Assembly: GCA_001972305.1 (NCBI GenBank)
Contig: BDDD01000023.1
Location: forward strand, 293,707 to 357,706
Source: Cephalotus follicularis
Taxonomy: Eukaryota; Streptophyta; Magnoliopsida; Oxalidales; Cephalotaceae
DNA: 64,000 bases
Direction of reading: 5' to 3'
Position 1 is the first letter of the stretch, and the number at the start of each line of letters is the position of its first letter. The notes below the pieces were generated by a model. That model searched no databases and had not been told where the DNA came from. It was given only the letters and a program-made list of their open reading frames with translations. This document shows positions 4,380 to 62,742 of the stretch, in pieces. Position numbers and translations under genes: made by a program.

Positions 4380-4450
4380 CAGTCGACTGTCATGAAGAAC
4401 CAGTCGGCTGTTGGGTTGAGTAGTCGACTGCTTTGGGTGACAGTCGACTG
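4380..4450. promoter_or_regulatory. Palindrome array in E1 LTR: 4 sites
   Basis: Ten-bp sites of the CAGTCGACTG type start at 4380, 4401, 4421 and 4441 (steps 21, 20, 20). Spacers are unrelated to each other. A regulatory role is inferred only from the pattern. Confidence 0.75.
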
Positions 4451-5616
4451 CCTCTGCCCAGAAAATGCAGAAATTGCAAGTCATGTGATGCCAATTTAAT
4501 TCCCAATCAATTCAATACATGCAATTATGCAGAAAATAACATACATAATATGCATACTCATATTTTCCATAACATATCATTACCCCTACCTCAATTCGCT
4601 ATCCCAAGATCAATTGAGTTTGATCTTTCTCTTTGAGTTCCAAGTCACTTCCACAAACAATTCTTTCAGTTCAGTAGTATTGATCTATGCATGTTTGTTT
4701 ATGAACATATGCATCAATATCATTAGGTTTCAATAACTTTAACAAGCTTAACACTAGCTCATTTATCATCACTTTCATCATTTCACCACTTTTCCTTTTG
4801 AACTCTATGTCAACAATCATTCAATCTCGAATTCATTGATTTTTTCTTGTTTGACAGTAGATACATAAATGAAATCAGTATGTATATATATTCCAATCAA
4901 TTATAATCATTATCTAGTTGCATCAAGAATTACTAGAACTCTTAAGTCTCTAGTTCCATTTAAACATTCTCCATACTCCAAGTAATTTATACAATCCATC
5001 TACTGATTTTGAATATTTTAACAATAGGAATATACATACTTAGGAGTCATTAAGCATATCCTAACATTAACATCAATCACAATTCATTCTAGAGGCTATA
5101 TCACCAATTCCTCTTGATTTCAATATTACTTTCCATTTCAATTCTAAAGATTGCTATTCCAATCTATTAACAGAAGATATATAACATTTTTCCTAGTCAT
5201 TTAATCATCAAAATAACAAGGATTTCGGATCAAGGACTTACCAAATCTATAAAGCTTCAAAGTCCTCCTTTTGAGCTTTCTAACACCTCTAATGCAAGCC
5301 TTCAATGATTCCTCTCTTCACTTAGTGTTTTCTAACACTCTAACACCATTTCATCAGCAGATATAACTCTCAAAATCCTCTGAATTCGTCAGATTTGTTA
5401 CCTACTCACATGCACTCACCTTCCACTCTTTCTTTCCACCTACATGCCTTGTTCTCTTTCACTTTTCCTTCATAAATTATCATTTACAGGTAGTAGATAT
5501 GCAGAGAACATGCAAAACATTCTCTTTTTGCATGTTCTAGCAGGTGGTGAGACATAAGTGCCATTCCCACCTGTCATTCCTGTCTTGCACATGCCAGAAA
5601 CCTGTTCTGGCAATTC

Positions 5617-5696
5617 CAGTCGACTGGATTTAGTGGGCAGTCGACTGCCTTCTTCACGTGGCAAACAGTCGGCTGTTCCCCTGTGACAGTCAGCTG
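5617..5696. promoter_or_regulatory. Palindrome array in E1 LTR: 4 sites near the LTR start
   Basis: Sites of the CAGTCGACTG type start at 5617, 5638, 5666 and 5687 (steps 21, 28, 21). The cluster is 175-254 bp from the LTR 5' end, the same place as the cluster at 58851-58929 in E11. Confidence 0.75.
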
Positions 5697-5870
5697 TTTG
5701 GGTTAAAATTAGGGTTTCTAACCTTTGATACTTTACCAATTGCATATCAATTCACCCCAAACATTTACCAATCATAGAAATTAGTATAATTGGACAAATA
5801 ACTCAATTAAAATGTATATTTTATTTCAAATTTGGGTCAATATACATTTATTGAAGTTGCGGTTATTACA

Positions 5871-6063
5871 GGTTCACTCTTTAATCGATCGTTGACTTCA
5901 AACCACTTTAACTCGAAAAGAAACGTTTTAGCTTCATTTTCTCTTTTTTCGCAATAATCAACATAATACCTGAAAATCAGATAAACACCACCACAGTAGT
6001 CTATTCCAAGCATAAAAATATAATAAATAAATCATTAAAATAACACATTTTTATGTTTATCAA
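5871..6063. other. AT-rich spacer between E1 and E2
   Basis: About 190 bp of AT-rich sequence with no coding frame or recognisable repeat end. It separates the E1 LTR from the truncated copia E2. Confidence 0.5.
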
Positions 6064-6657
6064 CCTGATATTTTGTTTGCTGCGTGTTTGTGTGCACATT
6101 TTCAGTCACACCCTAAAGAGTCACATGTTTTGGAAGCAAAACGTATTTTTAAATATCTTGAGTGTACACCTACACTAGGCTTATGGTATTCTAGGGAGTC
6201 TAGTTTTTAATTGCATACCTATTATGATGTGGACTTTGGCGGATACAAGGTTGAAAGAAAGGCCACAAGTGGTTGTTGTCAATTCTTAGGTAGCATGTTA
6301 GTATCATGGTTTAGTAAAATGCAGAATTATGTTGCACTTTCCACTACTGAGGCTAAATATATTGTGGCTGGAAGTTGTTGTGCCCAAGCACTTTGGAAGA
6401 AACAACAACTAGTGGATTATGGTTATAGGTTTAGTAAAATACCAATTAAATGTGATAACACTAGTAGTATTTGTTTATTAAAAACTCATGTTAAACATTA
6501 TAGGACAAATCATATAGATATTAGACATCATTTTATTAGAGATCACATTGAAAAAGAAGATGTCATTCTTACATACATTCTCACACAAGAACATATTGCA
6601 TATATTTTCACCAAATCACTGGATGAAAATACATTCTCACATCTTGAAGGGAACTAG
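6064..6657 (+). pseudogene. E2 copia RT end and RNase H, 5'-truncated
   Basis: The frame opens in the PDILF block at 6064 and runs through HPKESHVLEAKRIFKYLE into RNase H, with the DVDFGG, KATSGCCQFLG and LSTTEAKYIVAG motifs. It ends near 6657. It matches the end of the E3 pol in order and spacing but is clearly more diverged, with a TAA near 6210 and decayed residues near the C-terminus. Everything upstream of the RT end is missing. It is the older SIRE-type copia into whose 3' LTR E3 inserted. Confidence 0.9.
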
Positions 6658-7041
6658 GTTTAAGTGAAATAGAATAGTTTCATATGCATCTTTGTTATTG
6701 TTTAAGGGGGAGAAATTATTTTATCTATTTTGATGATTTCCAAAAAGGGGGAGAGTGTTTAATAAAAAAAAAAATTCTATTGATGTTTAAAAAGGGGAGT
6801 ATGTTTTATGTTTTGAATTTCTTGATATGAATTGTTTGTGTTTTTCAATTTTTTGATATATCGATATCATATTAAGGGGGAGTTGACATTTATTTGAGTT
6901 GGTATATGTATGCATAATTTGTCTTGATATAATGATGTTAACTTCTTGCACAAGTCAATTTTTACATATGTTAAAAGTTTGTTTTAAATGCTTTATACCT
7001 TCCTATTGTAAATGTTTTGTCATCATCAAAAAGGGGGAGAT
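6658..7041 (+). other. E2 3' untranslated tract with repeated polypurine tracts
   Basis: Non-coding and T-rich, with at least five AAGGGGGAGA-like purine tracts (near 6703, 6745, 6791, 6873 and 7030). The last one abuts the LTR start at 7042. Multiple PPT-like tracts are a known habit of SIRE-type copia elements and recur in E3. Confidence 0.75.
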
Positions 7042-7091
7042 TGTTGACATTTATGTGTTACAATCTTTGTTTTGATGATTACAAAACACTT
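7042..7091 (+). repeat. E2 3' LTR, left piece
   Basis: Starts TGTTGACATT directly after a polypurine tract. It is cut after 50 bp by E3; the CACTT at 7087-7091 is the left TSD copy. The LTR resumes at 16008. Confidence 0.8.
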
Positions 7092-7256
7092 TGTTGGCCT
7101 TTGCCACCCCGTTTAATTGCATTACCATATGTTATTTTGATGATTAACAAACATAGATTACTTGTATGCATAATTCCTTGAGTTATAACTTCATATACTC
7201 ACTTGATTTTATGTCCAAAGTTGTGCCAAGAACATTTTTGCAGATACAGGCCAATC

Positions 7257-7766
7257 CAGCCGACTGGTAAGCAATCCAGTCGACTGCCCAAGGTTGTGTA
7301 GTCGACTGCCAAGGGTTGTGTAGCCGACTGGTTCTTCAACCAAACTCAGCATTTGCAAGAACACCAATCCAGTCGACTGCCACAAGGGTCCAGTCGACTT
7401 CCAGGCTGATCCAGTCGACTGCAACAGGACACCAGTCAACTGCCATGGGTGCACATTTCAGGCAGAAGCTTCTGTATCTTTTTAACACCCAATCCAGCCG
7501 ACTGAAGCAGGGGGCCAGTCGACTGCCAGGGGGTCCAGTCGACTGCCAGTGAATCCAGCCGACTGTTTTCAATTGTGCAATTTCAGGCAGTAGCATTTGT
7601 AATCTCCAATTTCAGCTCAACAGCCGACTGGAACAGAGCATCCAGTCGACTGCCAGCTTCACCAGTCGACTGCCTAGTGAAGACAGCCGACTGCCCAACA
7701 CCAACGGCTATATTCAAATGTACGCGCCATCAATCCAGCTGACTATCGTCCAAATCCAGCCGATTG
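7257..7766. promoter_or_regulatory. 4x4 palindrome array upstream of the E3 TATA box
   Basis: Sites of the CAGTCGACTG/CAGCCGACTG type start at 7257, 7277, 7299, 7321; 7370, 7391, 7412, 7433; 7495, 7516, 7536, 7556; 7621, 7643, 7663, 7684, with two weaker sites near 7737 and 7757. This is four groups of four with 20-22-bp steps, and groups repeat every 113-126 bp. The gaps between groups are weakly similar (a TTTCAGGCAG block), so a ~125-bp higher-order repeat is likely. It ends about 45 bp before TATATA. A promoter role is inferred. Confidence 0.8.
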
Positions 7767-7810
7767 GATTTGTAACAGGCAGTTAAAAATAGATCCGTTG
7801 GAGGCACACC

Positions 7811-7816
7811 TATATA
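7811..7816 (+). promoter_or_regulatory. Candidate TATA box of E3 5' LTR
   Basis: TATATA lies just downstream of the palindrome array and upstream of the rest of the LTR (R/U5 by position). The motif is short, so the call rests mainly on its place. Confidence 0.5.
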
Positions 7817-8366
7817 TGGAAATTTGGAGCTCTTGCACAAGTGATCAAGCATTCAAGTTGCATATTCATTCAAGTTATCTCAAGTACAATTCCAAGCTTT
7901 CAAACAATCAAAAGAGATCATTTCAAAGCAATCTTATACTTTACAAAGCTCACATTTTACATTCCATATTTACTAGAAGCTTTGTTAGAGTTGAGCTTTA
8001 TTGTAAACAAATTCATTATGAATTTGTAACCATTTAAACACTTATTTCACACATATAAGAGAGGTTGTCTCTTGTATTGCTCGGTTGGAGCATATTTGTA
8101 ATTCGCTTGGTTTGAGCGAAGTTTGTTGAAGCTCGGTTGGAGTTTCAAGCCCGGATTGGGGCATACCTAGAGAAATACTCAAGGGGAGGCCTTGGGGAGT
8201 GGACGTAGGCGGTTTGCCGAACCACTATACATCCGTTTGCAATTCTCTCAACCCTACACTCTTTACATTTCCGCAATTGTGTGTTTGTGTTAATTGAATT
8301 ATTTGTGGTATAATTGCTAGTTAATTTTTATAAGTCTATTCACCCCCCCTCTAGACTTCCTACAAT

Positions 8367-8378
8367 TGGTATCAGAGC
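8367..8378 (+). other. E3 primer-binding site, Met-tRNA
   Basis: TGGTATCAGAGC begins two bases after the LTR end and matches the initiator-Met tRNA 3' end complement exactly. Confidence 0.95.
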
Positions 8379-8419
8379 GGGTTACTCTTCATTAAAGATT
8401 AACATCTTGAGTTTTGATC

Positions 8420-10207
8420 ATGGCCTCTACTAGCATGAACAACCAATCCTGACACAATGACGATGTCTCCGAATTTAAGGTACCATTCTTTAGTGGTGAC
8501 GATTTTCCTTATTGGAAAAGTCGTATGGAGATATACCTTAAGTCTAGAGACTTTAGGAATTGGCTTAGTGTGAAAAATGGCCCTCACACCCCTATGATGC
8601 TAAATGATAAAAACGAGCTCGTTTCCAAACCGGAAGACGAATGGGATGAGGATGACTTTAGAAAATTGACTATGGATAACAAGGCCTTGAATATATTACT
8701 TGTATCTTTAGACAAGACCAAATACAATCTCGTTAGGAGATGTACTTCCGCATATGAGGTGTGGAAATTGCTCATCCTTACCCATGAGGGTACCGATCAA
8801 GTTAAGAATGCTAAACTTGCTTTGTTAAATAGAGATTACAAATTATTTAAAATGCAACCGAACGAATCCATTAAGAATTTGTATAATCGGTTGCTTGACA
8901 TTACTAATGGTTTGCTTAGTCTTGGAAAGGTGTTTGGACAGGACGAACTCGTGAGGAAATTGCTAGGGTGTCACAACGATGAATGGGAACCCAATGTGAC
9001 GGCAATTGAAGAATCGAAAGACTTGAAGACCATGGAAATTGAAGAACTTCTTGGCTCCCTCATGACTCATGAGGTAAAATTGAGCAAGAAATCGGCAAAT
9101 CTTGTGGAGACAAAGCCACAAGAGGAGAGAAGAAAGGACATTACTCTTAAAAGCACACACAAAGAAGAAATGTCAAGTGAAGATGAGCTAGAGGAAGAGG
9201 ACTATGATCTCTTTGCGAAAAGGTTCACAAAATTCGCAAAGATGAACAAAGCAAGAAGGTTCCAAAGAAAGAACTTCAACAAGGGAGAGGGAAGCAAGAT
9301 GGATCCTCCCACATGCTTCGAATGTAATAAACCGGGGCACATCAAAGTTGATTGTCCACAATTGAAGAAAAAGAGGTTATTCAAGAAGAAAGCACTCAAG
9401 GCATGGCACCTTAGTGATGACGAATCCTCCGATGATGAAGTCCCCGAGAAAGTGGCAAACCTTTGCTTCATGGCATTGAGTGACGATGAGGATAGCGAAA
9501 ATGAGGTAGGTGATTCTTACACATTTGGTGAATTGCAATTTGCTTTTGATGAATTGCTTGTAGAGTTTAAGAAGAAATGTTCACAATGCACTTTACTTAA
9601 GAAAAACATGACTAGTGTAGAAAAAGAAAAAGAGTTACTAGTTGTTGAAAATGAACATTTGAAAAATGACATTGCCATTTTAGAACATGAACTAGCTAAA
9701 AGGGATAATGACATAGCTAAACCTACTTCATCTAGTGACATTGCATTAGAAAAAGAAGTAGAATCACTTAAAGAGAAAAATGTGAATTTAGAAAAATCCT
9801 TTAGCAAATTCACTATAGGTAGCAAAAAGTTAGAAGAAATGCTAGGTAGTCAAAGATCATACCTAGATAAAACCGGTATAGGCTATGCTCCCCTAAAGGC
9901 TAAGGCTAAGTTAAAGAAGACTAGAATTAGACCTCATTGTACTTATTGCAATAAAATGGGACATACTAGAAATAAATACTTTAGAAGGATTGCACACTCA
10001 CATCACTCACACACTAGACAATCACCTAATCATAATCCAATTACTTTTAGACAAGTGTGGGTTCCAAAGGGAACTATTAGTCCTAAAAGTAACAATAAAG
10101 GACCCAATAAACAATGGGTACCAAGATCAAATTCCTTTAACACTTTTGTAGGTGGAACAATGCTTGCGGGCAAACCACAAAGAGGAGCAACCGTGGTATG
10201 TGGATAG
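8420..10207 (+). pseudogene. E3 gag with coiled coil and zinc knuckles
   Basis: The frame opens at ATG 8420, 42 bases after the PBS, with a TGA at 8450-8452 (codon 11); the next ATG in the same frame is 8525. Near the N-terminus is the copia gag segment (YWKSRMEIYLKS), then the UBN2-like gag domain, an acidic segment, a CCHC zinc knuckle (CFECNKPGHIKVDC, from 9314), and a long Lys/Glu-rich coiled-coil stretch (about 9560-9870). A second knuckle-like motif near 9940 has Tyr in place of its last Cys. A frameshift near 10160-10200 separates gag from protease. Gag would build the particle and bind RNA. It is long, as expected for SIRE-type elements. Confidence 0.93.
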
Positions 10208-13433: not shown

Positions 13434-13505
13434 CAGCCGACTGGACAAATTGTCCAGTCGACTGCCTGCCATCCAGTCGACTGCCATTAGTGGGCCAGTC
13501 GACTG
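13434..13505. promoter_or_regulatory. Internal palindrome array upstream of the E3 extra ORF
   Basis: Sites of the CAGTCGACTG type start at 13434, 13455, 13474 and 13496 (steps 21, 19, 22). They lie 216 bp after the pol stop and 115 bp before the ATG of the extra ORF. The intervening sequence is pyrimidine-rich like a plant 5' leader. I infer a possible internal promoter. Confidence 0.6.
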
Positions 13506-13619: not shown

Positions 13620-14749
13620 ATGGCACCCAAGAGACAAAGAGGAACTACTTCAAGGCAACCAAGGGGCTCACAAGCGGAGTTAGACTTCGACAATACACTC
13701 TTTCTCTCCAAAGAGAAAGAGATGAGGTATAACTCACATTTTAGCTCCGTTAAGTTACATTTGGAAAAGTGGATGTGTTAATTAGCAATCTTGCTGTTGT
13801 GATAACATGGTTGGAAGGAATGGGATGGTTTGATTACATTTGCTCATCTCATGTCATTTTTCCTAGATTAGTGAAGCTATTCTATGCAAATTTAGAGTCC
13901 TCCGCCACTTGTATTGCAAATTCCTTTGTTTTAGGCACTCCTATTTCAATAACTCCTGATTTCATTGCCGAAACCTTAGGAATTCCTAATGAGGGAATTG
14001 CTCATTTTAATGACATTGGAAAAACAGAGGCCTTAGGAATTTGTTTAGACCAGCCAAATGTCAATCCTCTCATGAATGTGACTAGTGGTCATTTGCCTAT
14101 TGCCTCTAGGATCATTCTCCTACTTATAACAAACACATTCCTCCCAAGAGAAGGCTCGCACACTCTTCCTTCCGAGCGAGACCTTAAATTCGTTGCATGT
14201 GTCAAAAATGGAACCCTTATTAACCTTCCTTATCTCATTGTCAACCACATGTTATCTCAACCAAATCACACACCTTATCCTATGCTTCTCAGTAGGATCG
14301 TTATGGTTGTCCTTGCATCACTTAACATTGATATACCTGATGATGAGCAAAGTGTTAAACCTTCCCATAAGCAGTTGGTGAATAAGGCAGGGCTTAGACT
14401 GTGTAACATTATATTTGAGGATGATGAGTGGGTCAAGTTACAAGGCAGAGGTAGAGAGCAAATAAGAGAGCAAGTCAATGTAAGAGGAGGAGATGAGGAC
14501 GATCCTCAGCAGTTTGAGGTGCGTCTGAGTGTTGACCAGAGCAGCAGCAGCAGCAGGCCTACCCTGGAGTCACTTTAGGCTAGGATGGATCTTGCCCAAG
14601 CCGACATCGAATATCTTAAAGGGCAAATGAACCAGTTCAGCGAAGGTCAAGCCAATATTCTTCAAGGTCAAGCCGATCTCCGTCAGGGACAAGAAAACAT
14701 CATTCAGATGCTTCAAAATGCTTTCCCACAGCACCCTCCTCCCGCTTGA
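13620..14749 (+). pseudogene. E3 additional ORF (env-like position), plant-transposon domain plus coiled coil
   Basis: The likely start is ATG 13620 with a basic N-terminus (MAPKRQRGTTSRQPRGSQ). A one-base frame change near 13767 leads into the main frame. That frame holds the plant-specific domain found in extra ORFs of large plant retroelements (GMGWFDYICSSHVIFPRLV, TPDFIAETLGIP). A TAG at 14576-14578 interrupts it, and the same frame then continues through a coiled-coil-like repeat (QANILQGQADLRQGQENI) to a TGA at 14747-14749. The position after pol matches the env-like ORF of SIRE elements, but I see no clear signal peptide or membrane anchor. Its role is unknown. Confidence 0.8.
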
Positions 14750-15387: not shown

Positions 15388-16002
15388 TGTTGGCCTTTGC
15401 CACCCCGTTTAGTTGCATTACCATATGTTATTTTGATGATTAACAAACATAGATTACTTGTATGCATAATTCCTTGAGTTATAACTTCATATACTCACTT
15501 GATTTTATGTCCTATCTCAAGTACAATTCCAAGCTTTCAAACAATCAAAAGAGATCATTTCAAAGCAATCTTATACTTTACAAAGCTCACATTTTACATT
15601 CCACATTTACTCGAAGCTTTGTTAGAGTTGAGCTTTATTGTAAACAAATTCATTACGAATTTATAACCATTTAAACACTTATTTCACACATACAAGAGAG
15701 GTTGTCTCTTGTATTTCTCGGTTGGAGCATATTTGTAATTCGCTTGGTTGGAGCAAAGTTTGTTGAAGCTCGGTTGGAGTTTCAAGCCCGGATTGGGGCA
15801 TACCTAGAGAAATACTCAAGGGGAGGCCTTGGGGAGTGGACGTAGGCGGTTTGCCGAACCACTATACATCCGTTTGCAATTCTCTCAACCCTACACTCTT
15901 TACATTTCCGCAATTGTGTGTTTGTGTTAATTGAATTATTTGTGGTATAATTGCTAGTTAATTTTTATAAGTCTATTCACCCCCCCCTCTAGACTTCCTA
16001 CA
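15388..16002 (+). repeat. E3 3' LTR (615 bp, internally deleted)
   Basis: It matches both ends of the 5' LTR but lacks the 659 bp equivalent to 7217-7875, which hold the palindrome array and TATA box. It ends TTCCTACA and is followed by the TSD CACTT. Confidence 0.95.
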
Positions 16003-18263: not shown

Positions 18264-18504
18264 GCGTCGACGCTTTATGTGTTTCATCTCCTTTTTATAC
18301 GCAACGCGTTAACGCGAGAAAGGAAAATGGGCATAAGCGTCGCCGCTTTCTGCTAAAGCATCGACACCTTATGTATTGTAAGCTGTTGATGCTTAGTGGC
18401 ACGCGTTGTGGCTTAAGGTATACAGCTTTCACCATCGACGGCTAGCGCAAAGCGTTGACGCTTAGACGTTAAGCGTCGATGCCTAAGCGTTAATGTGTTG
18501 ATGC
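18264..18504. promoter_or_regulatory. Palindrome array in E4 5' LTR (GCGTCGACGC type)
   Basis: Sites include GCGTCGACGC at 18264, GCGTTAACGC at 18306, then 18338, 18358, 18383, 18452, 18473 and 18495. Steps of 20-22 bp dominate where sites are well preserved. The decamer differs from the E1/E3/E9 one in its outer bases but has the same core. Confidence 0.65.
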
Positions 18505-22183: not shown

Positions 22184-22438
22184 GTGTCAACTGCCAATTT
22201 TAAAGTGTCAACAGTTTGGTGAAATACCATAAAGAGTCGACACTTATTTTAAAGTGTCGACAGTTTGGTGAAATACTATAAAGAGTCGACACTTATTTTA
22301 AAGTGTCGAAAGTTTGGTGAAATACCATAAAGAGTCGACACTTATTTTAAAGTGTAGACAGTTTGGAGAAATGACATAAAGTGTCGACAGTTATTTTAAG
22401 GCGTCGACCATCAGAAATTTGACTTAAAGCGTCGACAG
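22184..22438. promoter_or_regulatory. Palindrome array in E6 LTR (GTGTCGACAC/AG type)
   Basis: Sites start at 22184, 22205, 22234, 22254, 22283, 22303, 22332, 22352, 22381, 22401 and 22429. Steps alternate 20 and 29 (after an initial 21), a 49-bp two-site unit. Outer bases differ from other families; the core TCGAC is the same. Confidence 0.75.
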
Positions 22439-22592
22439 TTTGGGATAGTGTAATGGTGAAAGCGGCGACGCTTTCAAGAGTTAATTTTCCATTGTACGCG
22501 TCAAGCGGCAGCTCTTAGAGGACGAAACGGCAGCAGTTTAGGGCTTAAGCGGCGACGCTTAGTTCTTAACCGCCGACCCTTTTTAGGATGAG

Positions 22593-37038: not shown

Positions 37039-39465
37039 TGTAAGTCCTAGACATTTTATATGTACGGAATGGTATGCATTATTGTTTGTACATATATGGT
37101 ATTGTACACTATTATATTGATGGATGGTATGGATTGTATATGATATATACTATTTTCCATTTCTATGTCTGTTAATGGGTAGTGGAGGTTCAGTAGAACC
37201 TGATCGTAGCTTATATGATTTTCGCCTAAAGGGAACCTATTTCTATATATAGGCGGTCCAGTTCTTTCTATTCTCATTCCATTCTAGAGAGAGACTGAGC
37301 TAGAGAGAGGAAGTAGGCGAAATTAAGCAAACAAGGTGTCTCTGGGATTGTGGCAATGTATAGAACCTAAAGGGAGAAGCAGAACGAAGATTTAAACAAC
37401 ATATTCTCCGTTCTCAACAAATTTGAGGTAGGTTCTACATATGCTTTGATCTCCACATTGTGATGGTTTTGCATGATGTTATGGTTATGGATGGTTGTAT
37501 ACATGTTAGATGGATGGTTTATGGAACCGAATATGGTTAATAACGGATTGAAATGGAGATTGGAGAGAAATTTGAGAGTTGAGACTTTTTGCCCAATTTC
37601 CGTTTTCTCTCAAACTATTGGTTATGGAAATGGATTTAAACGGTTTAAAAGTTGTTTTTTGAGTTTTAATCGATCTTTGGAGCTTATAGCTTCCTTTGAA
37701 TCCAATTTTAAACTGTTTAAATGAGTTTCTGATCGATTTTGTAGTGTTGACAGCAGCCTGGCTGTTGACGTGTTCTTCGTACGCGTCGACGTGTTCTTTA
37801 GTGCACAAAGCGATGACATCTAGGTTTGAGCGTCAACGCCTTTTGTGTTTCTTCCCGTTTTTATGCGCAACGCGTTAACGGAATAAAGGAAAATGGGCAT
37901 AAGCATCGACGCTTTTGGCTTAAGCATCGACGCCTTATGTACTGTAAGTGGTTGACGCTTAGTGGCACGTGTTGACGGTTAAGGCCTACTGCTTTAACCG
38001 TCGACACCTAGCGCAAAGCGGCGATGTTAAGCGTCGACGCCTAAGCATTAAGGCGTTGATGCCTAAACCCCCTCTCTTATCCAAACCTCATTGTTTTCAA
38101 CAGGTTTCAATCCCAAATGATTTTCTCTTCAAAGGGATTCCATAGGAAGCCTCCCTAACGCCTTATAGCCTATGGAAATCCTCCTTTAACACCTTTGATT
38201 TCCAAATAAACTTTCAAAGTGAAAATTTAAAGGAAATCAAACAAAATGGTTTTATACCAAAGGTTTTTAAAAATGGTTAGGATAGCTCAATTACGACATT
38301 TGGACGCTTATATCCTAGTTGGACTTCCTCTCCATTATTTTCAAATTCGATAGGGACCAAGAAATTTGTTATGGAAATATGGTTATGGAAAATGTTTTTT
38401 AAATAGTTTTGATAGATGGATCCTATTTGATCCTTTATGGTTAGGTCCTTATGTTTTAAATGGAAATATGGTTATGGGCTACGGGTATGGTACGACTATG
38501 ATTGATGGATTGTTATGGTTGAGACCTTATGGGATAACCCATTCATAATCTTCATTTTCATCATGAAGAATTATGGATGCAGGCCACATATTATATAGAT
38601 ATGGATTCCTCCCTTTTTGGGTGACCTACGAGCATCATCGCATTGTGGACTGACATGGTGTGGATATGGCATGGTTATGGTATAGGCTAAGACCGTTGAG
38701 GACTAGCATTATGGTATGGGCTAGGACCATTGAGGACTAGCATTATGGTATGGATAATGTCACCGATGTTATCCTATGCTCCATACGGCTATGGCACGAA
38801 TAGTGTATAGACGATGGAGTTATTATCTCACCCCGGAGTGGCAGAGAAGTACTTGACCGTATGGATTGATTGTCCCCATGGATGGTTATGGATTGCTTTT
38901 ATGGATTGTCTGTAGGCCTATGGCCTTTGATGTGTTTAGGTCTAGCCAAGTATACCACCGCTTTGGGCCGGTTGGTATACTGAACCTGTCCACAATATGC
39001 ATTCATGCATATAATATGTCATGCATATATATATATATATATATATATATGTTATATCTGTTGCATGCATAGCATATAGTGTAGCCTACACAGCCATGGG
39101 TTGCTGACCCATTCATGTAATGGGTCAGGTTCAGGTGCAGGTACAGGTGATGCACCGCAGTGAAGCAGCTCGAGACGGATCAGACTTTCCAGACAGATCA
39201 TGGTCATAAGTTTAGATTTTTTTATCTACCTTGTGTATAAGATTGGATGTATAAGAGACATTTGTATTTCATCTTTTGACTGGCCGGCTTGTGGCAGCGC
39301 TTAAGATATGTATGTTGATGTTATGGATATGGTTTGGCCGCATGCATATGGTATTTAATGTTTTAATTTGTAGCACTTTTGAAGTATGATGTGTATGGAT
39401 TGCTTGAATGGATGGAATATCACGCGTCAAACCTTGGGGATTTCCCCACGGTTCGGGGTGTGACA
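37039..39465 (+). repeat. E4 3' LTR (2427 bp)
   Basis: Starts TGTAAGTCCT and ends GGGTGTGACA, followed by TSD TGGGC. It has the palindrome array (37744-38062), a 34-bp tandem duplication (38681-38748), an AT microsatellite (39027-39050) and the conserved hairpin (39104-39128). Confidence 0.94.
37744..38062. promoter_or_regulatory. Palindrome array in E4 3' LTR
   Basis: Sites start at 37744, 37762, 37783, 37810, 37830, 37872, 37903, 37924, 37949, 37969, 37998, 38018, 38031 and 38053. Most steps are 18-21 or 27-29. The core is GTCGAC, often GTTGAC after C-to-T change. Confidence 0.65.
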
Positions 39466-42847: not shown

Positions 42848-42924
42848 ATATATCCATTTCCTTGGCAATTAACAGATTGTTTCCTTGAGATGACTAATAA
42901 TGACATCTGTTCCATATAGGAACA

Positions 42925-48360: not shown

Positions 48361-49517
48361 TGTAGTACCCTACTTGTTCGTATATGTGTTTTACGGACTT
48401 TTTATATGTTTGTGTTCAGGCTTTTTTTTTAAATTTGTTTTATTTTAAAGTCCGGTTGCCCTAAGTTTTGGGCCTATGTGTTTTGTGCTGACTGATACCA
48501 GCCTGAATTTTGGATATGTGGTATGTTAATGTTGTTGGGTTGGGCTTATGTTTATATCTTTTTATTTTTTTTATCAAACTTAATTTTACAACTTTGAAAA
48601 TTATTAAAACAATTCCCTTTTTATTTTAAAATTCTTTTATTTATTTTATTTATTTTTCTTTCTTTTCTTTCCTCTTTTCTTCTTTCTTTCCTTTCCTTCT
48701 CTCCCGTAACTCTCTCTCTCTCCCTATTTTCTCACATGCTTTCAATCTAAATTTGCATTCTAATCTCCTGAAAATCCTCACTTTTTCCATATGAAATCAG
48801 ATTATGTCTCCTATTTTCGTTTTGAGAGTGAGATTGCCATTGTTATATGTCATTCTTTCTCTCTTTGCTAAGCCTGCCGAATTCTACATTGTTGAAGTCT
48901 GTTTGGTTCTTGTGGAGTTGTTTCATCAGGTTTATAGAGGTAATTTCAATCTTTGCTCTTTTGGTTGGGTTTCCTTGGGCTTGCTTAAGGCTATATAATT
49001 TGTCTTTGTTTTCTTCTCTTTGATTTCCTGCAAACAGCCGAGTAATCCTTGAACTGTGGTGTTCTTCTGCAATAATATGTGTTCTCAATACCATTACAGG
49101 TTAGTGAATCCTGCTGTGATGGTTTATATCACTTTGTTATGTTGTATTCATGCCAAATAGGTTGTTAGAAGTTGTTTTGGTTCCCTGTCAATTCATGTCA
49201 TGTTGGCATTGTCGTTCTAAGTCAGTTGGTCTGCCTTTAGACACCTCACATAAACTGTAATCTGGTTTTTATAAGTAATGGCAAATAACTTGACAGAAAA
49301 TATGAATTGTATGTATGCATATATTTAAAAAGTTCTTTCTTTCTCTTGAAGTAACAACTGCCTATATACTATTCCATGCCAATTCTGTGTTTTTGTGTCA
49401 TCTAAACATCATACAATGTCTCGTGTATATGTTCATATGTCTCTGGTATGATGTCTTTCATGTTTAGGTAGTTTATGTATTGAAAAATGTCAAGTTCTGT
49501 TGTTCTGTCATCCAGAA

Positions 49518-49769
49518 TAGTCAGCTGTTCTTATTGACAATCGGTTGGTTTGGTTGTGTAGTCGACTGCCTTATGAAAATAGTCGACTGTCTTGTGTTGT
49601 GTAGTCGGCTGTTTGTATGAATCAGTCGACTGCCTTGTTATGCACAATCGGCTGGACCACTGTCACAATCGGCTGGACCACTTGGCATGTTTGTATAGTC
49701 GACTGGCCCTATCGCATAAGCGGTTTCCAAGCATCCAACAGTCGACTGGAGCTCTGTAACAGTTAGTCG
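49518..49769. promoter_or_regulatory. Palindrome array in E9 LTR segment A
   Basis: Sites start at 49518, 49538, 49559, 49580, 49602, 49623, 49645, 49666, 49696, ~49717 (weak), 49739 and 49760. Steps are 20-22 except one of 30. The consensus is YAGTCGACTG with variants TCGGCTG. Confidence 0.8.
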
Positions 49770-50370
49770 TTTTGTCCAGAGAATTCCTATTTTCAACTGT
49801 TTTGATTCGTTTGTTCCTCGAATCAAACCGGGTCTTTTCTAAACACTGTAACGAGTTTGTTTTATGTCTCCAATGTTTCTTAGACCCTTATATGAATAGT
49901 TTTGTGTCTTTTAGATTGTCATGCTTCAAAGGGGAGTTTGAGTTAACAATGTTTCCGTAAGTGCTTTTGTGAACGCAAAAAGGTACGGATGTCCTTCTTT
50001 CTTTGGCTATCTGGTTTTTATAGAACTAAAATCAGTTTTGTTTTATGCTATGTTTCTTCGTTTTATGGGCTTGGTTATGTTTTATGGTGTGTTTCAAAAA
50101 CAAAGTCGGTTTTTTACGTTTTTTGAATTTAAATGTTCATGACTTTATTCTTATGCTATGATATGTTACGATATGAAATGATCATCTCTTTATATCGAAA
50201 AATAAATGAGTTGATATTCTGAATACGAAATGTATGTTATCGTTGTAACGACCCGATCCTTAACCACATAAGAAATTGTCCGCTTTTGTCCCACGCAGAA
50301 CATACAGAGCCCATACATCTGTGTTTCCACATGGCCCATCACGGTTATATCCTATTTGATGGATTGGTCA

Positions 50371-50436
50371 GACTTCCCAGGAGGTCACCCATCCTGGTTT
50401 TGCCCTTAGCGTAGCATGCTTAACTTTGGAGTTTCC
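50371..50436 (-). ncRNA. 5S rRNA-derived segment in Cassandra LTR (left)
   Basis: On the minus strand ACTCCAAAGTTAAGCATGCT resembles the 5S box A region, and GGATGGGTGACCTCCTGGGA with AAGTC matches the 5S box C region. Only part of 5S is recognisable, so this is a captured Pol III promoter region and not a 5S gene. Confidence 0.85.
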
Positions 50437-50883
50437 ACTAACTCCTCAGCCAATCCATCAAAAGACGCCTCAGGTAATTAGGTTCAAGGATAATTTCTTA
50501 TATAGCACAGCCATACTTTCCCCCATTTCGATGGATCCGGTTCATTCCTGTCACAAGGGCGGCTCCATCTCATGGATAGCCCTTTCCTCTTGGTGGCTTC
50601 ATCTCATGGATAGCCCTTTCCTCTTGGTGGCTTCATCTCATGGATAGCCCTTTCCTCTTGCCCACTCTTAAGTGGGGTGTCACAGGCCCACCAGCTTCCG
50701 CCTGGTTCGTCCCCGAACCACATCTACTAGAGGGGGTCCGTCTCTGATACCAATCTTGTAACGACCCGATCCTTAACCACATGAGAAATTGTCCGCTTTT
50801 GTCCCACGTAGAACATACAGATCCCATACATCTGTGTTTCCACGTGGCCCATCACGGTTTTGTCATAATTGTTGGATTGGTCA

Positions 50884-50948
50884 GACTTCCCAGGAGGTCA
50901 CCCATCCTGGTTTTCCCCTGAGCACAACACACTTAACCTTGGAGTTTC
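50884..50948 (-). ncRNA. 5S rRNA-derived segment in Cassandra LTR (right)
   Basis: Second LTR copy of the 5S-like segment. Box C is intact; the middle region (GTTAAGTGTGTTG) differs from the left copy at several CpG-type positions. Confidence 0.85.
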
Positions 50949-52298
50949 CACTAACTCCTCAGCCAATCCATCAAAAGACGCCTCATGTAATTGGGTTCAA
51001 GGATCATTTCATATATAGCACATCCATACTTTCCCCCATTTCGATAGATCCGGTTCATTCCTGTCACAAGGGTGGCTCCATCTCATGGATAGCCCTTTCC
51101 TCTTGGTGGCTTCATCTCATGGATAGCCCTTTCCTCTTGCCCACTCTTAAGTGGGGTGTCACAATCACTGTGAACGATTTTCAAATATGTTTTGAGAAAG
51201 CATATTTATCTGTTTTTAAAGTGATGTTTTCGAAATAATTGAATACTGAGTCTTGTACCCACCTATGGGGCGTACCATAGGCATGTCGTAGGCTGGCACG
51301 GGGACATGACACTTCCGTATCAGTGTGATTAGTCTACGGCGTCTCTCAATGTTATGAATAAATCCCATGAGGTTGATTTATGGATCCGCTATGTATGATA
51401 GAGGCGTATGAATCGATTCTAGTATATGAATATGTGATATGAAATGATATGTGAGAATTGACTTGTGTAGTGCCGTACACTTCACTTCTAATGGGCATGT
51501 GGAATTAGTTTATCACACGCTTTCAATCTAAATTCCCATTATTATCTCCTGAAAATCCTCTCTTTTTCCATATGAAATCAGATTATGTCTCCTATTTCTG
51601 TTTTGAGAGTGACATTACCATTGTTATATGTCATTCTTTCTCTCTTTGCTAAGCCAGCCGAATTCTGCATTGTTGAAGTCTGTTTGGTTCTTGTGGAGTT
51701 GTTTCATCGGGTTTATAGAGGTAATTTCAATCTTTGTTCTTTTGGTTGGGTTTCCTTGGGCTTGCTTAAGGCTATATAATTTGTCTTTATTTTCTTTTCT
51801 TTGATTTCCTGCAAACAGCCAAGTAATCCTTGAACTATGGTGTTCTTCTGTTGTTTTCTGTGTTTTCAATACCATTACAGGTTAGTGAATCCTGTTGTGA
51901 TAGTTTATTTCACTTTGTTATGTTATATTCATGCCAAATAGGTTGTTAGAAGTTGTTTTGGTTCCCTGTCAATTCATGTCATGTTGGCATTGTTGTTCTG
52001 AGTCAGTTGGTCAGCCTATAGACACCTCACATAAACTGTAATCTTGTTTTTATAAGTAATGGCAGATAACTTGACAGAAAATCTGAATTGTATGTATGCA
52101 TATGTTTAAAAAGTTCTTTCTTTCTCTTGAAGTAACCACTGCCTATATACTATTCCATGTCGATTTTGTGTTTTTGTGTCATCTAAACATCATACAATGT
52201 CTTCTGTATATGTTCATATGTCTCTGGTATGATGTCTTTCATGTTTAAGCAGTTTCTGTTTTGAAAAATTTCAAGTTCTACTATTATGTTGTCCAGCA

Positions 52299-52526
52299 CA
52301 GTCGGCTGTTCTTATTGACGGTCGGCTAGTTTGGTTGTGTAGTTCACTGCCTTATGAAAATAGTCGACTATCTTGTGTTGTGTAGTCAGCTGTTTGTATG
52401 AATCAGTCGGCTGGACCTCTGTCATAGTCGACTGCTTGTAGTCTTGTTTGTATGGTCGACTGGCCCAGTTGCATAGTCGGCTGCCAATCTTCCAACAGTC
52501 GACTGGAGCTTTGTAAAAGTCAGCTG
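52299..52526. promoter_or_regulatory. Palindrome array in E9 LTR segment B
   Basis: Sites start at 52299, 52319, 52340, 52361, 52383, 52404, 52425, 52453, 52474, 52496 and 52517 (steps 20-22, one of 28). It parallels the segment A array. Confidence 0.8.
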
Positions 52527-53967
52527 TTTTGTCCAGAGAATTCCTATTTTCAACTGTTTTGATTCGTTTGTTCCTCGAATCAAACCGGGTATTTTCTAAA
52601 CACTGTAAGGAGTCTGTTTTATGTCTCTAATGTTACTCAGACCCTTATTTGAATAGTTTTGTGTATTTTAGATTGTCGTGCTTCAAAAGGGAGTTTGAGT
52701 TAACAATCTTTCCGTAAGTGCTTTTGTGAACGCAAAAAGGTACGGATGTCCTTCTTTGTTTGGCTATCTGGTTTTTATCGAACTAAAATCAGTTTTGTTT
52801 TATGCTATGTTTCTTTGTTTTATGGACTTGGTTATGTTTTATGGCATGTTTCAAAAATAAAGTCAGTTTTTGACATTTTACGAATTTAAATGTTCATAAC
52901 TTTATTCTTATGCCATGATACGTTACGATATGAAATGATCATCTCTTTATATCAAAAAATAAATGAGTTGATGTTTTGACTATGAAATGTATGTTATCGT
53001 TGTGAACGTTTTCAAATATGTTTTGAGAAAGCATATTTATGTGTTTTTAAAGTGAAGTTTTTGAAATGATTGATACTGAGTCTTGTACCCACCTATGGGG
53101 CGTACCATCGGCATGTCGTAGGCCTGGCACTGGGACATGACACTTCTGTAGTCGTGTGATTAGTCTACGGCATCTCTCAATGTTATGAATAAATCCCATT
53201 AGGTGGATTTATGGATCCGCTATGTATGATAGAGGCGTATGAATCGATTCTAGTATATGGATATGTGATATGAAATGATATGTCAAAATTGACTTGTGTA
53301 GTGCCATACACTTCAATTCTAATGGGCGTGTGGAATTAGCGCCTCCCTTGCCAATCTATGTTATGAAATGTGATATGATTTGTGGCTCAGTATGACTTTA
53401 TCAATCATGAAATGATGTTTTTGAAATGTTTCGTAAATGTTTCGAAAGATATGAAATTGGTATTTTCTGGAAATTCGGATATGATTTCAAAGAATGTTTA
53501 AGTTGTTTTAATTGCTTAAGATTTTCTATTATGAATTTTATTGAGATCTTACTGCTTTTAAACTGATCGTTTACTGCTTTTACTTTCTTTATCCGGACTG
53601 AGGTTTGCTCAGCCGCGTTTTATTTTCCATGCGGCAGGTTATCAGGAGCAGCGGGGGAATGTGTGAATGACAGTTGGCCACTTTTATGTCGTGGATCCCT
53701 AGGAGTGTGATCCCTATATGTGTCTTCTATTCTGTTGGTCATGAACAATATGTTATTTTGGTTTATGTTTCGGTATTTGACTTTTGAAATATGTTAAGTT
53801 TTAAGTTTGGAACAGTTTTTCATTTATGCTATGACCGCCACGTTTTGACTAATAAAGAAATGTTTATGTTCAGTTAAAGTTATGGCTATGTTCAGATATG
53901 TTTTGTTAAGTTATGATATGTATTACGACCTACGACGACTGCCGACGTCCGGGGGTGTTACATATTG

Positions 53968-53979: not shown

Positions 53980-54131
53980 ATAGGTTTTGTTTCCTTAGGA
54001 GACCTAACTAGGTTTGACTTGTGAGATTAGGTTGACACTAGGATAGGCTTTTCCGTTATGATCTTATGATATGTTTTTTGCCTCAGTTTTTGTTCTTTGT
54101 GATGTTTTATGTTTTGAGTGCCTTTTCATAG

Positions 54132-55700: not shown

Positions 55701-55732
55701 AAGTCGGTGGCTAAGGGTGCTGAAGGTTTCTT

Positions 55733-58670: not shown

Positions 58671-58850
58671 GGTATGTGTAATAACCGCAAATTCAATTAA
58701 TGTATATTGATTCCATTATTAAAATAAATATACATTTTAATTGAATTATTTATACAATTATAATAATTCCTGTGATTGGTAATTACTTGGGATGAATGGA
58801 TGTACAATTGGTGAAGTATCAAACTTAAGAAACCCTAAAACAGCCATCGA

Positions 58851-58929
58851 CAGCCGACTGTCACAGGGGAACAGTCGACTGTCTGAGGCGTGAGTGGACA
58901 GTCGACTGCCTGTTAACGACAGTCGACTG
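58851..58929. promoter_or_regulatory. Palindrome array in E11: 4 sites near LTR start
   Basis: Sites start at 58851, 58872, 58899 and 58920 (steps 21, 27, 21), matching E1's 5617-5696 cluster in position. Confidence 0.75.
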
Positions 58930-59978
58930 GAATGGTACAGAAAAGGCATCTGACAGGCGCAGAGACAGTGATGCCAAGTGTTCTAAATATGGCATGCATG
59001 CGAAATTGGTGTCACCAGCTGCCATAACATGCAAGGAGAGTGCCTTGCATGTCCTCTATTCCCTCTACAAGAATTGCAGACCTGCAACCTGCAGAATAGA
59101 AGAGAAAAGGTAAGAAAAGAGGTGCATGTGAGAGAGAGAAGAAAAGGAGAGAAGCTGAGCAATGGAGTCTGACGAATTCAAGATTCCTAACCCTTATATC
59201 AGCTGTTGATTGAGAGGTGTGTGTTAGAAAAACACTGAGTGAAGAGAGAACTTACTAAAGATTAATGGAGCTTGCATGTTGATGGAATTGTAGAGAGCTC
59301 AAAGAAGGAGACTTGGAAGCTTGGATTTTCTTGGTAAGTTCTCAAATTCAAACTCACTGCCATGTGATGATAATGTAACTAGGAGAATGGTAAGATGTCT
59401 TCGGTTAATACGGTTAAGATTAACAATTCTAGAATTGAAATTGAAATGGTAATAAAAGGAGAAAGAATTATGGACATGAAGCTTAGAGGAGTGTTAACAA
59501 CTCTAGTTCAAATGGTAATTGTGGTTAGTTTTCATAAGCTTACTGATATATACACATCTTCTGTCAACAAGTTAAGTGGAATATAATTGACATAGAGTTC
59601 AAAGGGAAGTTGAAAAAAGGGAAGTTTAAGACTTAATGAACTAGTGATTAACTACTATTGGAGTTGTAGTTATCGTGAGGAATTACTGAAACCTACTGGT
59701 ACTAATGCATGTGTCTGTAAACATGCATGCACTGTATAGATTATATTCTGCTGGAATTAAAGAAGTGATTGGTGAAAGAGGCTTGGAAACTCAAAGAGAA
59801 AGATCAATTACAATTGATCTTGGGATAGCAATTGAGGTAGGGGTAATGACATGTTTATATAAGATATTTTATGCATATCATGTATGTTATTTTCTGTATG
59901 ATTGCATGTGTGGAATTGGTTAGAAATTGAACATTGAAATATATACAACCTGCTACTGCCCGTATTTCTGGGCAGAAG

Positions 59979-60091
59979 CAGTCGACTGTTCTTCAGTACA
60001 ATCGACTACTCAATGCATCCAGTCGACTGTTAAGAGAAAACAGTCGACTGCTCAACCAAAATAGCCGACTGATCTTGAGAACAGCCGACTG
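59979..60091. promoter_or_regulatory. Palindrome array in E11: 6 sites
   Basis: Sites start at 59979, 59999, 60020, 60041, 60062 and 60082 (steps 20, 21, 21, 21, 20), the cleanest two-turn phasing in the window. Confidence 0.8.
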
Positions 60092-61267
60092 TCCTGGGTT
60101 AAAATTTTGCTATAGGTCCTGTTCGGGCCCAATTGAATTACTACTGTCCTTGTTACTGTTTCGGTATATGCTACTGTTAACTAGTATATACTAGTGACTG
60201 TGATAAACCCTATTGTTCCCACATTTTCAAAGATTGAACAAACTACGTGTTATATGCACGATTTATGATATCAACTATCATTTTCAAAATGAAAGATTAT
60301 TGCTAAATGAACTACTGATTTTCCTCCTATGAGAGGCACCTACTGTTTTGTTTCCCAAACTGGAAACCACTACTGTATTGATATCGTTTTCCTCTTAAGA
60401 GATGTACGATCACTGAATTGTTATATGTTTCTAAAGAAAACACTTTGATATTGCATATTATTTATAAATGTAATATTATTATTGAATTGCACTGATTGAA
60501 TTGATTGTCTATGTTTATTGCCGTTAGTCGAGTGATGGCAGAGGTCACCGGCCATGGTGGGGATCCTAGGTGCCAGGAGTTGGCTAGAGTATCACCCAAA
60601 CTTATCTGCATTGCAGATCTTATTGTTAACTACCCGCTAAACGCCGGTAGTAAATGTTACCTTTTCTATCATCCTCGGAGTGTAGGGTGATAGTTAGGTG
60701 ATGCACAGTTGGTGCTAGGAGTTAGCGACATGTGACACCCAAACCACTGTATGAATTGATTGTCCCCTTGAGCGGTATTCTTGCTTTGTATTGTCTATGG
60801 CCACTTGGCATGATTGCTTATATATTGGCACATTTAAATGTTATTTTAAATATAAACTGTCATACATGTTGCATTCATATATTCCTTAGCATGCATTATC
60901 TTCCTACTTAGCCAAGTGAGGACAACGGCTAACCCCTACAATTTCAGATTAAGCGAAGACGATCGGAGATTGCTGCTGAAGCTTGGAGAGCTTCTGTTAT
61001 TCATCTTAAGGTTGTTATTTTGTTATGATGTACTGTATTGTAATGAACGGTTCATACCCCGTGTTACTGTTGTATTTCCTTATGTATAAGGATATTTGTT
61101 GGTTGTACCCGCACGTAGTATGGGCTGTGTGCGGATGACTTATGTTTTATAATCCAGATGACTGCTTCCGCTTATGTATTTGAATTGTTATGAGAATGCT
61201 GGATTATTATGCTTATTCCTGATATCACCAATATGCTCGTGTAATGTATCGAAAGACGGGTGTGACA

Positions 61268-61333
61268 GTATGTACCACAAATACACCACCTCTGCGAAGA
61301 ACTGCCAGATTACCCGGGAAACCTGAGAGATAC
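61268..61333 (+). other. E9 sequence between E11 and the 3' LTR
   Basis: 66 bp of internal E9 sequence after the right TSD of E11. It lacks an obvious polypurine tract; GAGAGATAC just before the LTR is the nearest purine run. Confidence 0.7.
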
Positions 61334-62490
61334 TGTAATACCCTGCTTGATCGTATATGTGTTTTACGGACTTTTTAAATGTTTGTGTTCGAGCTTTTTT
61401 TTAATTTGTTTTATTTTAAAGTCCGGTTGCCCTATGTTTTGGGCCTATGTGTTTTGGGCTGCCTGATACCAGCCTGAATTTTGGATATGTGGTATGTTAA
61501 TGTAATGTTGGGTTGGGCTTATGTTTATATCTTTTTATTTTTTTTATCAAACTTAATTTTACAACTTTGAAAATTATTAAAACAATTCCCTTTTTATTTT
61601 AAAATTCTTTTATTTATTTTATTTATTTTTCTTTCTTTTCTTTCCTCTTTTCTTCTTTCTTTCCTTTCCTTCTCTCCCGTAACTCTCTCTCTCTCCCTAT
61701 TTTCTCACATGCTTTCAATCTAAATTTGCATTCTAATCTCCTGAAAATCCTCACTTTTTCCATATGAAATCAGATTATGTCTCCTATTTTCGTTTTGAGA
61801 GTGAGATTGCCATTGTTATATGTCATTCTTTCTCTCTTTGCTAAGCCTGCCGAATTCTACATTGTTGAAGTCTGTTTGGTTCTTGTGGAGTTGTTTCATC
61901 AGGTTTATAGAGGTAATTTCAATCTTTGCTCTTTTGGTTGGGTTTCCTTGGGCTTGCTTAAGGCTATATAATTTGTCTTTGTTTTCTTCTCTTTGATTTC
62001 CTGCAAACAGCCGAGTAATCCTTGAACTGTGGTGTTCTTCTGCAATAATATGTGTTCTCAATACCATTACAGGTTAGTGAATCCTGCTGTGATGGTTTAT
62101 ATCACTTTGTTATGTTGTATTCATGCCAAATAGGTTGTTAGAAGTTGTTTTGGTTCCCTGTCAATTCATGTCATGTTGGCATTGTCGTTCTAAGTCAGTT
62201 GGTCTGCCTTTAGACACCTCACATAAACTGTAATCTGGTTTTTATAAGTAATGGCAAATAACTTGACAGAAAATATGAATTGTATGTATGCATATATTTA
62301 AAAAGTTCTTTCTTTCTCTTGAAGTAACAACTGCCTATATACTATTCCATGCCAATTCTGTGTTTTTGTGTCATCTAAACATCATACAATGTCTCGTGTA
62401 TATGTTCATATGTCTCTGGTATGATGTCTTTCATGTTTAGGTAGTTTATGTATTGAAAAATGTCAAGTTCTGTTGTTCTGTCATCCAGAA

Positions 62491-62742
62491 TAGTCAGCTG
62501 TTCTTATTGACAATCGGTTGGTTTGGTTGTGTAGTCGACTGCCTTATGAAAATAGTCGACTGTCTTGTGTTGTGTAGTCGGCTGTTTGTATGAATCAGTC
62601 GACTGCCTTGTTATGCACAATCGGCTGGACCACTGTCACAATCGGCTGGACCACTTGGCATGTTTGTATAGTCGACTGGCCCTATCGCATAAGCGGTTTC
62701 CAAGCATCCAACAGTCGACTGGAGCTCTGTAACAGTTAGTCG
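62491..62742. promoter_or_regulatory. Palindrome array in E9 3' LTR
   Basis: Same sites and spacing as 49518-49769, shifted by 12973. Confidence 0.8.

Follow-up and report, generated by a model that had tools for sequence, protein, structure and literature searches.

GTCGAC-core palindrome arrays with a step of about 21 bp in copia and gypsy long terminal repeats of Cephalotus follicularis

We analysed a stretch of 64,000 nucleotides (the window) on contig BDDD01000023.1 (C23) of the Australian pitcher plant, Cephalotus follicularis (Oxalidales). Nested long terminal repeat (LTR) retrotransposons make up most of the window, and, as the initial annotation had stated, both copia and Ty3/gypsy LTRs carry arrays of 10-bp palindromes with a GTCGAC core. 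Sites of the type CAGTCGACTG are called class 1 and those of the type GCGTCGACGC class 2. The class-1 arrays, and the LTRs around them, are listed below (PBS, primer-binding site; ORF, open reading frame; ORF3, third ORF).

3508..5871, minus strand: gypsyA 5' LTR of the Ty3/gypsy element E1, recognized by homology to 58677-61268, the LTR end and a PBS-like sequence
4380..4450: gypsyA array 2 in E1, class-1 run of 4 sites, steps 21, 20 and 20 bp
5617..5696: gypsyA array 1 in E1, class-1 run of 4 sites, steps 21, 28 and 21 bp
7092..8364, plus strand: 5' LTR of the SIRE-like copia element E3, by homology; ATTGG and the TATCAGAGC PBS follow at 8365-8378
7257..7766: array of the E3 5' LTR, class-1 quartets at 7257-7330, 7370-7442, 7495-7565 and 7621-7693 and a single site at 7757-7766
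13434..13505: internal class-1 quartet of E3, steps 21, 19 and 22 bp, between pol and ORF3
15388..16002, plus strand: 3' LTR of E3, without the stretch matching 7217-7875 (the whole array and the TATA box)
48361..51508, plus strand: gypsyB LTR, by homology, with Cassandra-like insertions at 50243-51163
49559..49748: gypsyB array of inverted polarity, 8 class-1 sites in one run (up to 2 mismatches)
51506-53339: further gypsyB LTR copy, 90% identical
52299..52505: array in that copy, class-1 run of 7 sites
58677..61268, plus strand: gypsyA 3' LTR of the Ty3/gypsy element E11 (= E10), by homology and Pfam
58851..58929: gypsyA array 1 in E11, class-1 run of 4 sites, steps 21, 27 and 21 bp
59979..60091: gypsyA array 2 in E11, class-1 run of 6 sites
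61334-64000: second gypsyB LTR, 99.5% identical
62532..62721: array of this second LTR, 8 class-1 sites in one run

The annotated arrays were thus recovered in E1 and E11 (two in each), in E3 (LTR and internal region) and in the family at 48-53 and 61-64 kb. The arrays of the window are real, but what had been said of E4 and E6, and in part of the spacers, was not borne out: the LTRs of E4 (17.5-19.9 kb) and E6 (37.0-39.5 kb) contain no CAGTCGACTG run and hold scattered, decayed class-2 sites instead.

18264..18482: decayed class-2 sites in the E4 LTR
37783..38062: decayed class-2 sites in the E6 LTR

E1 (minus strand) and E11 (plus strand, ending at 61268) have one Ty3/gypsy LTR family, gypsyA, in common. 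E3 has the Pfam domains Retrotran_gag_2, rve and RVT_2 plus a third ORF with PF20167, and its LTR/PBS junction, CA-ATTGG-TATCAGAGC, matches the junction published for Sireviruses (PMC2829016). The sense strand of gypsyB is the plus strand of the window; the family is assigned to Ty3/gypsy because a related element on C1, another contig of the assembly, carries RVT_1 and RNase H domains, flanked by its LTRs (L065).

GTCGAC occurs 53 times in the window, compared with 5.8 expected from trinucleotides, which places it at the top of the 64 six-base palindromes by over-representation. Exact matches to CAGTCGACTG number 25; at one mismatch or less there are 48 (mean 0.99, maximum 3, in 100 first-order Markov simulations), and 24 steps between them measure 19-22 bp, as against none in the simulations. 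Counted per LTR, E3 has 17 sites (within 2 mismatches) and the gypsyA LTRs of E1 and E11 have 8 and 10. Most variants have a T replaced by C in one of the halves (giving CAGCCGACTG or the complementary form) or a C replaced by T at the edges, and CAGCCGACTG is the commonest variant in SIRE LTRs (35 of 81 sites). A random 200-kb genome sample was array-poor (15 sites at one mismatch or less against a Markov mean of 3.1, and 2 of its 20 stretches with clusters), and the viral contigs that were searched for the motif pair gave no match.

The steps cluster at 19-22 bp, as had been claimed. In the nine runs of at least four sites in the window, 40 of 53 steps fell in this range, whereas random placement of the same sites in the same spans gave a mean of 6.9 and a maximum of 18 (5000 trials). 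Genome-wide, in the 1.577-Gb assembly, 179,339 GTCGAC pairs had steps of 14-26 bp, compared with 2,685 for a reversed control pattern; with 1,443 pairs at 14-18 bp and 3,117 at 23-26 bp, subtraction leaves 174,779 (97.5%) at 19-22 bp, the sharp peak near 21 bp that the initial annotation had named as support. Among the matches listed, the first 100 pairs (all on C1) had steps of 19, 20, 21, 22 and 23 bp in 5, 24, 59, 11 and 1 cases; they comprise 85 distinct strings, 67 with AGTCGACT flanks and 18 with other, mostly GCGTCGACGC-like flanks, and the step is equal in the two groups. At 12 C1 loci and in four window elements, 31 of 54 steps (up to 60 bp) between GCGTCGACGC sites were 19-22 bp, a count that is not independent, the C1 loci having been picked from hit lists and two of them, L054 and L055, being near-copies.

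The proposal that all sites lie on one DNA face was sustained only within limits. It is possible inside runs of about 2-8 sites, but helical phase is broken because of the steps of 27-30 bp, which are specific to certain lineages: 27-28 bp accounts for 10 of 27 steps in gypsyA array 1 and for six in gypsyB (plus one of 30 bp), and for 16 of the 204 steps no longer than 60 bp in all five lineages together (SIRE LTR, SIRE internal, gypsyA arrays 1 and 2, gypsyB). In four of the five SIRE LTR copies the sites form four runs of four (L002 has runs of 3, 4 and 4), and since about 49-65 bp separate these runs, regular spacing is only local. The gaps between the quartets of E3 (49, 62, 65 and 73 bp) are only partly near whole helical turns. 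Strict helical phasing of entire arrays was not supported, on account of the 27-28 bp steps.

We compared the conservation of sites and spacers by defining sites on one copy and scoring them in the others. L019 was omitted from this test for both gypsyA arrays and was included in the transition and step counts. The identities of site, spacer and other columns are given below, followed by the fraction of spacers keeping their exact length against that of control windows; the copies were fetched for holding sites, which biases the comparison somewhat toward site conservation.

SIRE LTR, 5 copies: 0.93, 0.67 and 0.77; 118/150 against 229/260
SIRE internal array, 4 copies: 0.91, 0.61 and 0.64; 16/39 against 211/268
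gypsyA array 1, 7 copies: 0.95, 0.62 and 0.63; 66/66 against 347/585
gypsyA array 2, 8 copies: 0.84, 0.59 and 0.70; 69/108 against 543/961
gypsyB, 8 copies: 0.88, 0.66 and 0.65; 114/153 against 787/1016

Sites outlast spacers despite their CpG and CHG positions, which mutate fast when methylated. The share of transitions among all changes is 76-85% for site columns, 18-61% for spacers and 45-54% for the remaining LTR columns. Exact spacer length was kept no better than in control windows in three of the five lineages; the constraint on spacing is the 19-22 bp window, not exact length.

In SIRE elements the arrays adjoin the LTR promoter or the start of the third ORF. In E3 the relevant features are:

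7810..7819, plus strand: TATA box of the 5' LTR, 53 bp past the start of the last site
13620..14578, plus strand: third ORF (PF20167), ATG at 13620; the frame of the E3 copy is broken before 13754

The distance from the SIRE LTR array to a TATA-type box is 53 bp in E3, L029, L030 and L002 and 94 bp in L054 and L055; L058, a class-2 locus with a TATA box 102 bp past its last site, was excluded from this count, its orientation being unchecked. In E3 some 115 bp separate the end of the internal quartet from the third-ORF ATG, and array copies lie upstream of the third ORF in E3, L029, L030, L036 and L064; no TATAWA was found between the internal array and the ATG in E3 or L064. We also examined 1 kb upstream of PF20167 at 16 loci, taken from the first 17 of 150 rows scored from 13,073 candidates (one row had no upstream room and was dropped). 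Fifteen of these loci, which are close relatives and not independent events, have class-2 arrays about 250-540 bp upstream and a TATAWA at -277 to -334; at least three sites occurred in 15 of 200 random 1-kb windows for class 2 and in 4 of 200 for class 1. The TATA box at these loci fits the rhythm of the array, because a site starts 22 bp before it in 14 of the 15 and another 15-21 bp after it in 11. The sixteenth locus (L069) has a gypsyA LTR with class-1 sites upstream. In gypsyA itself, array 1 begins 172-175 bp into the LTR, ahead of a CT-rich stretch, and no conserved TATA box was found in these LTRs. A GGTAAGT is conserved about 630-700 bp into the LTR in the three copies reaching that far (E1, E10/E11 and L031), with array 2 beyond it, which suggests a putative leader intron that would contain array 2. 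SIRE LTRs also keep a CCAACGG between array and TATA box (7701-7710 in the window; L029, L030, L035, L002, L054 and L055), in several of them with a second copy on the opposite strand; we take it to resemble the MYB3R/MSA element.

The class of a site is associated with the third ORF rather than with the superfamily. The 12 C1 loci with GCGTCGACGC-type sites have only short stretches in common, except L054 and L055, which are 99.5% identical and about 8 kb apart. The stretch between these two (L064) is regarded as a SIRE-like element because it encodes copia gag, RVT_2 and PF20167 domains, and class-2 sites also stand in front of its third ORF. Both flanks of L057 (86% and 73%) identify it as a gypsyA LTR; its sites are of class 2 at the place occupied by class 1 in its relatives. 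Both classes therefore occur within SIRE and within gypsyA, and class is not fixed by superfamily; it follows the ORF3 clade.

According to the initial annotation, spacers are not conserved and the LTRs otherwise unrelated, and homologous spacers copied between families were to count against its reading. Within families the spacers do change more rapidly than the sites, yet certain spacers show significant similarity between copia and gypsy, so the case of a single copied sequence applies in part; with the 21-bp peak borne out, the interpretation as a whole is partly supported. With columns permuted within each lineage (300 nulls, 3 mismatches allowed), the similarity was above every null in three of the 20 combinations of lineage pair and strand; most others were null. 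SIRE LTR and gypsyA array 1 shared 14 of 49 spacers (6.9 expected; 0 of 300 nulls as high), SIRE LTR and gypsyB in reverse 8 of 49 (1.3 expected), and SIRE LTR and the SIRE internal array in reverse 5 of 49 (0.3 expected). One SIRE LTR array (L030) and one gypsyA array (L031) contain CCAAGGCAAAG in identical form. A spacer motif (ACAGRG, CAGGGG or ACAGTGG), chosen after inspecting the spacers, is found forward in 11 of 49 SIRE LTR and 6 of 26 gypsyA array-1 spacers and reversed in 6 of 39 gypsyB spacers, in the opposite orientation in none of these three lineages; it is absent from the SIRE internal and gypsyA array-2 spacers. Half-changed sites agree with it in polarity, the ratio of C at position 4 to G at position 7 being 46:2 in SIRE LTRs, 6:0 in gypsyA array 1 and 2:19 in gypsyB. 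Exchange of units contributed to the arrays, since some copia and gypsy units have homologous spacers. Copia and gypsy have thus exchanged some array units, the gypsyB array being inverted, and the sites were retained afterwards as the spacers drifted.

Arrays of a similar kind are known from Sireviruses. The sections of PMC2829016 (Bousios et al. 2010) at hand describe arrays of a palindromic repeated motif (RM) in 13 Sireviruses; the arrays precede the TATA box and, in elements that have one, the ENV-like gene (77 of 79 linker copies). RM is called Sirevirus-specific against classic Ty1/copia, no common binding factor is named, and its role is left open. The Cephalotus arrays are alike in having many palindromic copies, at least eight in E3 and in the gypsyA LTRs of E1 and E10/E11, which lie upstream of the TATA box in SIRE LTRs and upstream of the ENV-like third ORF in E3, L029, L030, L036, L064 and 15 of the 16 PF20167 loci. 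The Vitis RM, CGGTCGACCG, has the same GTCGAC core. In contrast, RM has a CGG-CCG core in 12 of 13 elements (Tnd-1 is a published exception), whereas the Cephalotus cores are CAG-TCGA-CTG and GCGTCGACGC; those sections of PMC2829016 give no fixed step, unlike the step of about 21 bp here; RM is described as restricted to Sireviruses, whereas in Cephalotus arrays are also found in the LTRs of elements that encode Ty3/gypsy gag, RVP_2 or RVT_1; and RM arrays form CpG islands, whereas CpG observed/expected is 0.48 in the E3 array and 0.49 in the rest of the LTR (one element). In maize Sireviruses, the excerpts of PMC5311732 and PMC10760457 that we consulted describe palindromes clustered in the cis-region of the LTR, the same palindrome being also the commonest one of structured Helitron regions and hence shared across superfamilies, although the motif differs and was studied as RNA structure and small-RNA hotspots. 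We conclude that the SIRE half of the system is a new instance of the published array type with another core; as far as literature searches show, the novelty lies in the gypsy half, in the step, in the exchange and in the link to ORF3. No paper was found that combines GTCGAC, palindrome and LTR retrotransposon; among the matches listed, papers with CAGTCGACTG (20 of 29), or with AGTCGACT and retrotransposon (16), seemed unrelated by title. Titles and abstract openings found by further searches contained nothing on arrays of this kind, and among eight papers listed in another, PMC2829016 was the only one on RM arrays. LTR promoters with repeated factor sites include the heat-shock element clusters of ONSEN and the promoter boxes of Tnt1 and Tto1, each of which involves a single family, host stress factors and few sites.

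A second likeness is to VANDAL transposons, whose VANC proteins bind short, tandemly repeated motifs (PMC5735166). As far as PMC5735166 and PMC10398659 describe them, both systems have short motif arrays in non-coding transposon DNA that diverge between related elements, and the VANC motifs, bound by a transposon-encoded protein, are also present in an unrelated element, AT9TSD1 (VANC6 motifs in PMC5735166). VANDALs are Mutator-type DNA transposons, unlike the LTR retrotransposons examined here, and the VANC21 motif, YAGTATTAY, is non-palindromic, unlike the Cephalotus sites. VANC carries DUF1985; this domain was found neither in the full Pfam lists of four ORF3 proteins nor among 25 of the 29 families listed for 70. 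The ORF3 protein has a basic N-terminus, and its predicted fold may resemble VANC21; pLDDT was 40 in the first AlphaFold model of a class-1-clade ORF3. The extra 3' ORF is present in 74% of SIRE elements with high heterogeneity, and its function is called speculative, in the portion of PMC6317226 consulted. Cephalotus follicularis proteins make up all 120 listed of the 347 relatives of ORF 13754-14578, and no PF20167-type ORF was seen in Ty3/gypsy elements within the stretches examined. The 13,073 first-look candidates genome-wide look like a very large expansion of this SIRE accessory ORF.

A regulatory role of the arrays at the DNA level, taken by itself, is very probable, and protein binding to promoter-proximal DNA is its most likely mechanism. 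The arrays would act as promoter-proximal cis-regulatory DNA, in which each palindrome may be the site of a sequence-specific protein and a distance of two helical turns would bring adjacent molecules into contact. The best candidate for this protein is the SIRE third ORF with its possibly VANC21-like predicted fold, VANC21 being a transposon-encoded anti-silencing protein. Through the arrays in front of the LTR TATA box and those in front of its own promoter, ORF3 would keep both active or protect them from silencing. Whether CAGTCGACTG or GCGTCGACGC is recognized would depend on the ORF3 clade, and Ty3/gypsy LTRs, having acquired array units by sequence exchange, might use the factor in trans. 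We give this reading in full, from arrays read by ORF3 through anti-silencing to the benefit of gypsy elements in trans, a probability of roughly 45%; the sites, their spacing, position and conservation, the class pairing and a tentative fold match are its observed parts. More tentatively still, the "envelope-like" ORF3 of Sireviruses might be no envelope at all and instead a VANC-like, sequence-specific anti-silencing factor with autoregulatory arrays, coevolving with site class, and with arrays captured by gypsy elements that use it in trans. If true, plant LTR retrotransposons would join the DNA transposons of Arabidopsis as users of sequence-specific anti-silencing, and regulatory DNA would be traded among unrelated element families; the role of the arrays and the function of the extra ORF would merge into one testable hypothesis of a retrotransposon anti-silencing system exploited by other families.

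It is possible, if rather unlikely, that a host transcription factor binds the arrays, the LTR families having converged on, or exchanged, its sites for expression. Candidates would be proteins of the AP2/ERF-DREB type, which prefer RYCGAC-like sites. Promoter-proximal position and the evidence of selection fit such a factor equally well; the commonest SIRE LTR variant contains GCCGAC; one-sided changes far exceed double ones (46 sites have C at position 4, and only two of them also G at position 7); and the PLACE analysis in PMC2829016 gave mainly stress-related factor sites. A single factor is difficult to reconcile with several palindrome classes having the same step, the class follows the ORF3 clade, and palindromy reaches past the core. 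Moreover, two copies retain CAGCCGGCTG, a site without RYCGAC, at one and the same position, contradicting the idea that every site requires RYCGAC. The MAIN/MAIL1 "DOWN" motif was also weighed as a candidate, but the part of PMC7156037 at hand gives no motif sequence for comparison.

Of the functions suggested by the initial annotation, a protein array was rated best, and RNA pairing was weakened by a test of neighbour duplexes. Action as RNA, in which neighbouring palindromes form hairpins in LTR transcripts that feed or evade small-RNA silencing or aid packaging, we regard as improbable. Array RNA folds better than shuffles (z of -2.6 to -8.2 in five of seven stretches, -1.4 and -0.9 in the other two), spacer ends pair slightly above chance at the 0.05 level, albeit in only two of five lineages, which does not sustain self-complementary spacers as a rule, and the maize Sirevirus palindromes are small-RNA hotspots in the excerpts of PMC5311732 and PMC10760457. 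However, any palindrome will fold, the 5' transcript does not include arrays located upstream of the TATA box, pairing in neighbour duplexes is poorer than with sites in random orientation in four of five lineages (better only in gypsyB), and changes in neighbouring sites are non-compensatory and in the same orientation, which weakens pairing as the main function although the arrays fold well.

Least probable is the absence of any function, with tandem-repeat expansion and inter-family recombination spreading one minisatellite-like unit, as spacers common to copia and gypsy, the co-orientation of spacer motif and half-changed site in three lineages and the 75% internal duplication in the E3 array (7360-7565/7484-7693) might indicate: spacers diverge faster than sites, the reverse of the neutral minisatellite expectation, the same step occurs in two flank classes, and the arrays adjoin two different promoters within one element.

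The following feature and observations complete the description of the window.

2608-3210: Ty3_capsid/Retrotrans_gag ORF of E1, following the 5' LTR (Pfam gag)

An exact 385-bp tandem duplication (260-644/645-1029) lies in the integrase-coding part of E1, and one of 214 bp, 99% identical, at 20995-21208/21209-21422. The E3 LTRs are 98-99% identical apart from 7217-7875 of the 5' LTR, which is missing in the 3' LTR at 15512/15513. Within the gypsyB LTR, 50243-51163 and 63216-64000 consist of minus-strand units with a 5S rRNA-like stretch, a PBS-like TGGTATCAGAG and short internal repeats, for which we assume the name Cassandra. A 49-bp tandem repeat at 22197-22441, near the LTR pair 21938-22215/26309-26585, contains sites of a third flank class, AAAGAGTCGACACTT/AAAGTGTCGACAGTTT, with steps that measure 20 and 29 bp, and AAGAAGTCGACGTTTT-like sites about 20 bp apart at C1:209500-210400 (L061) possibly represent a fourth.

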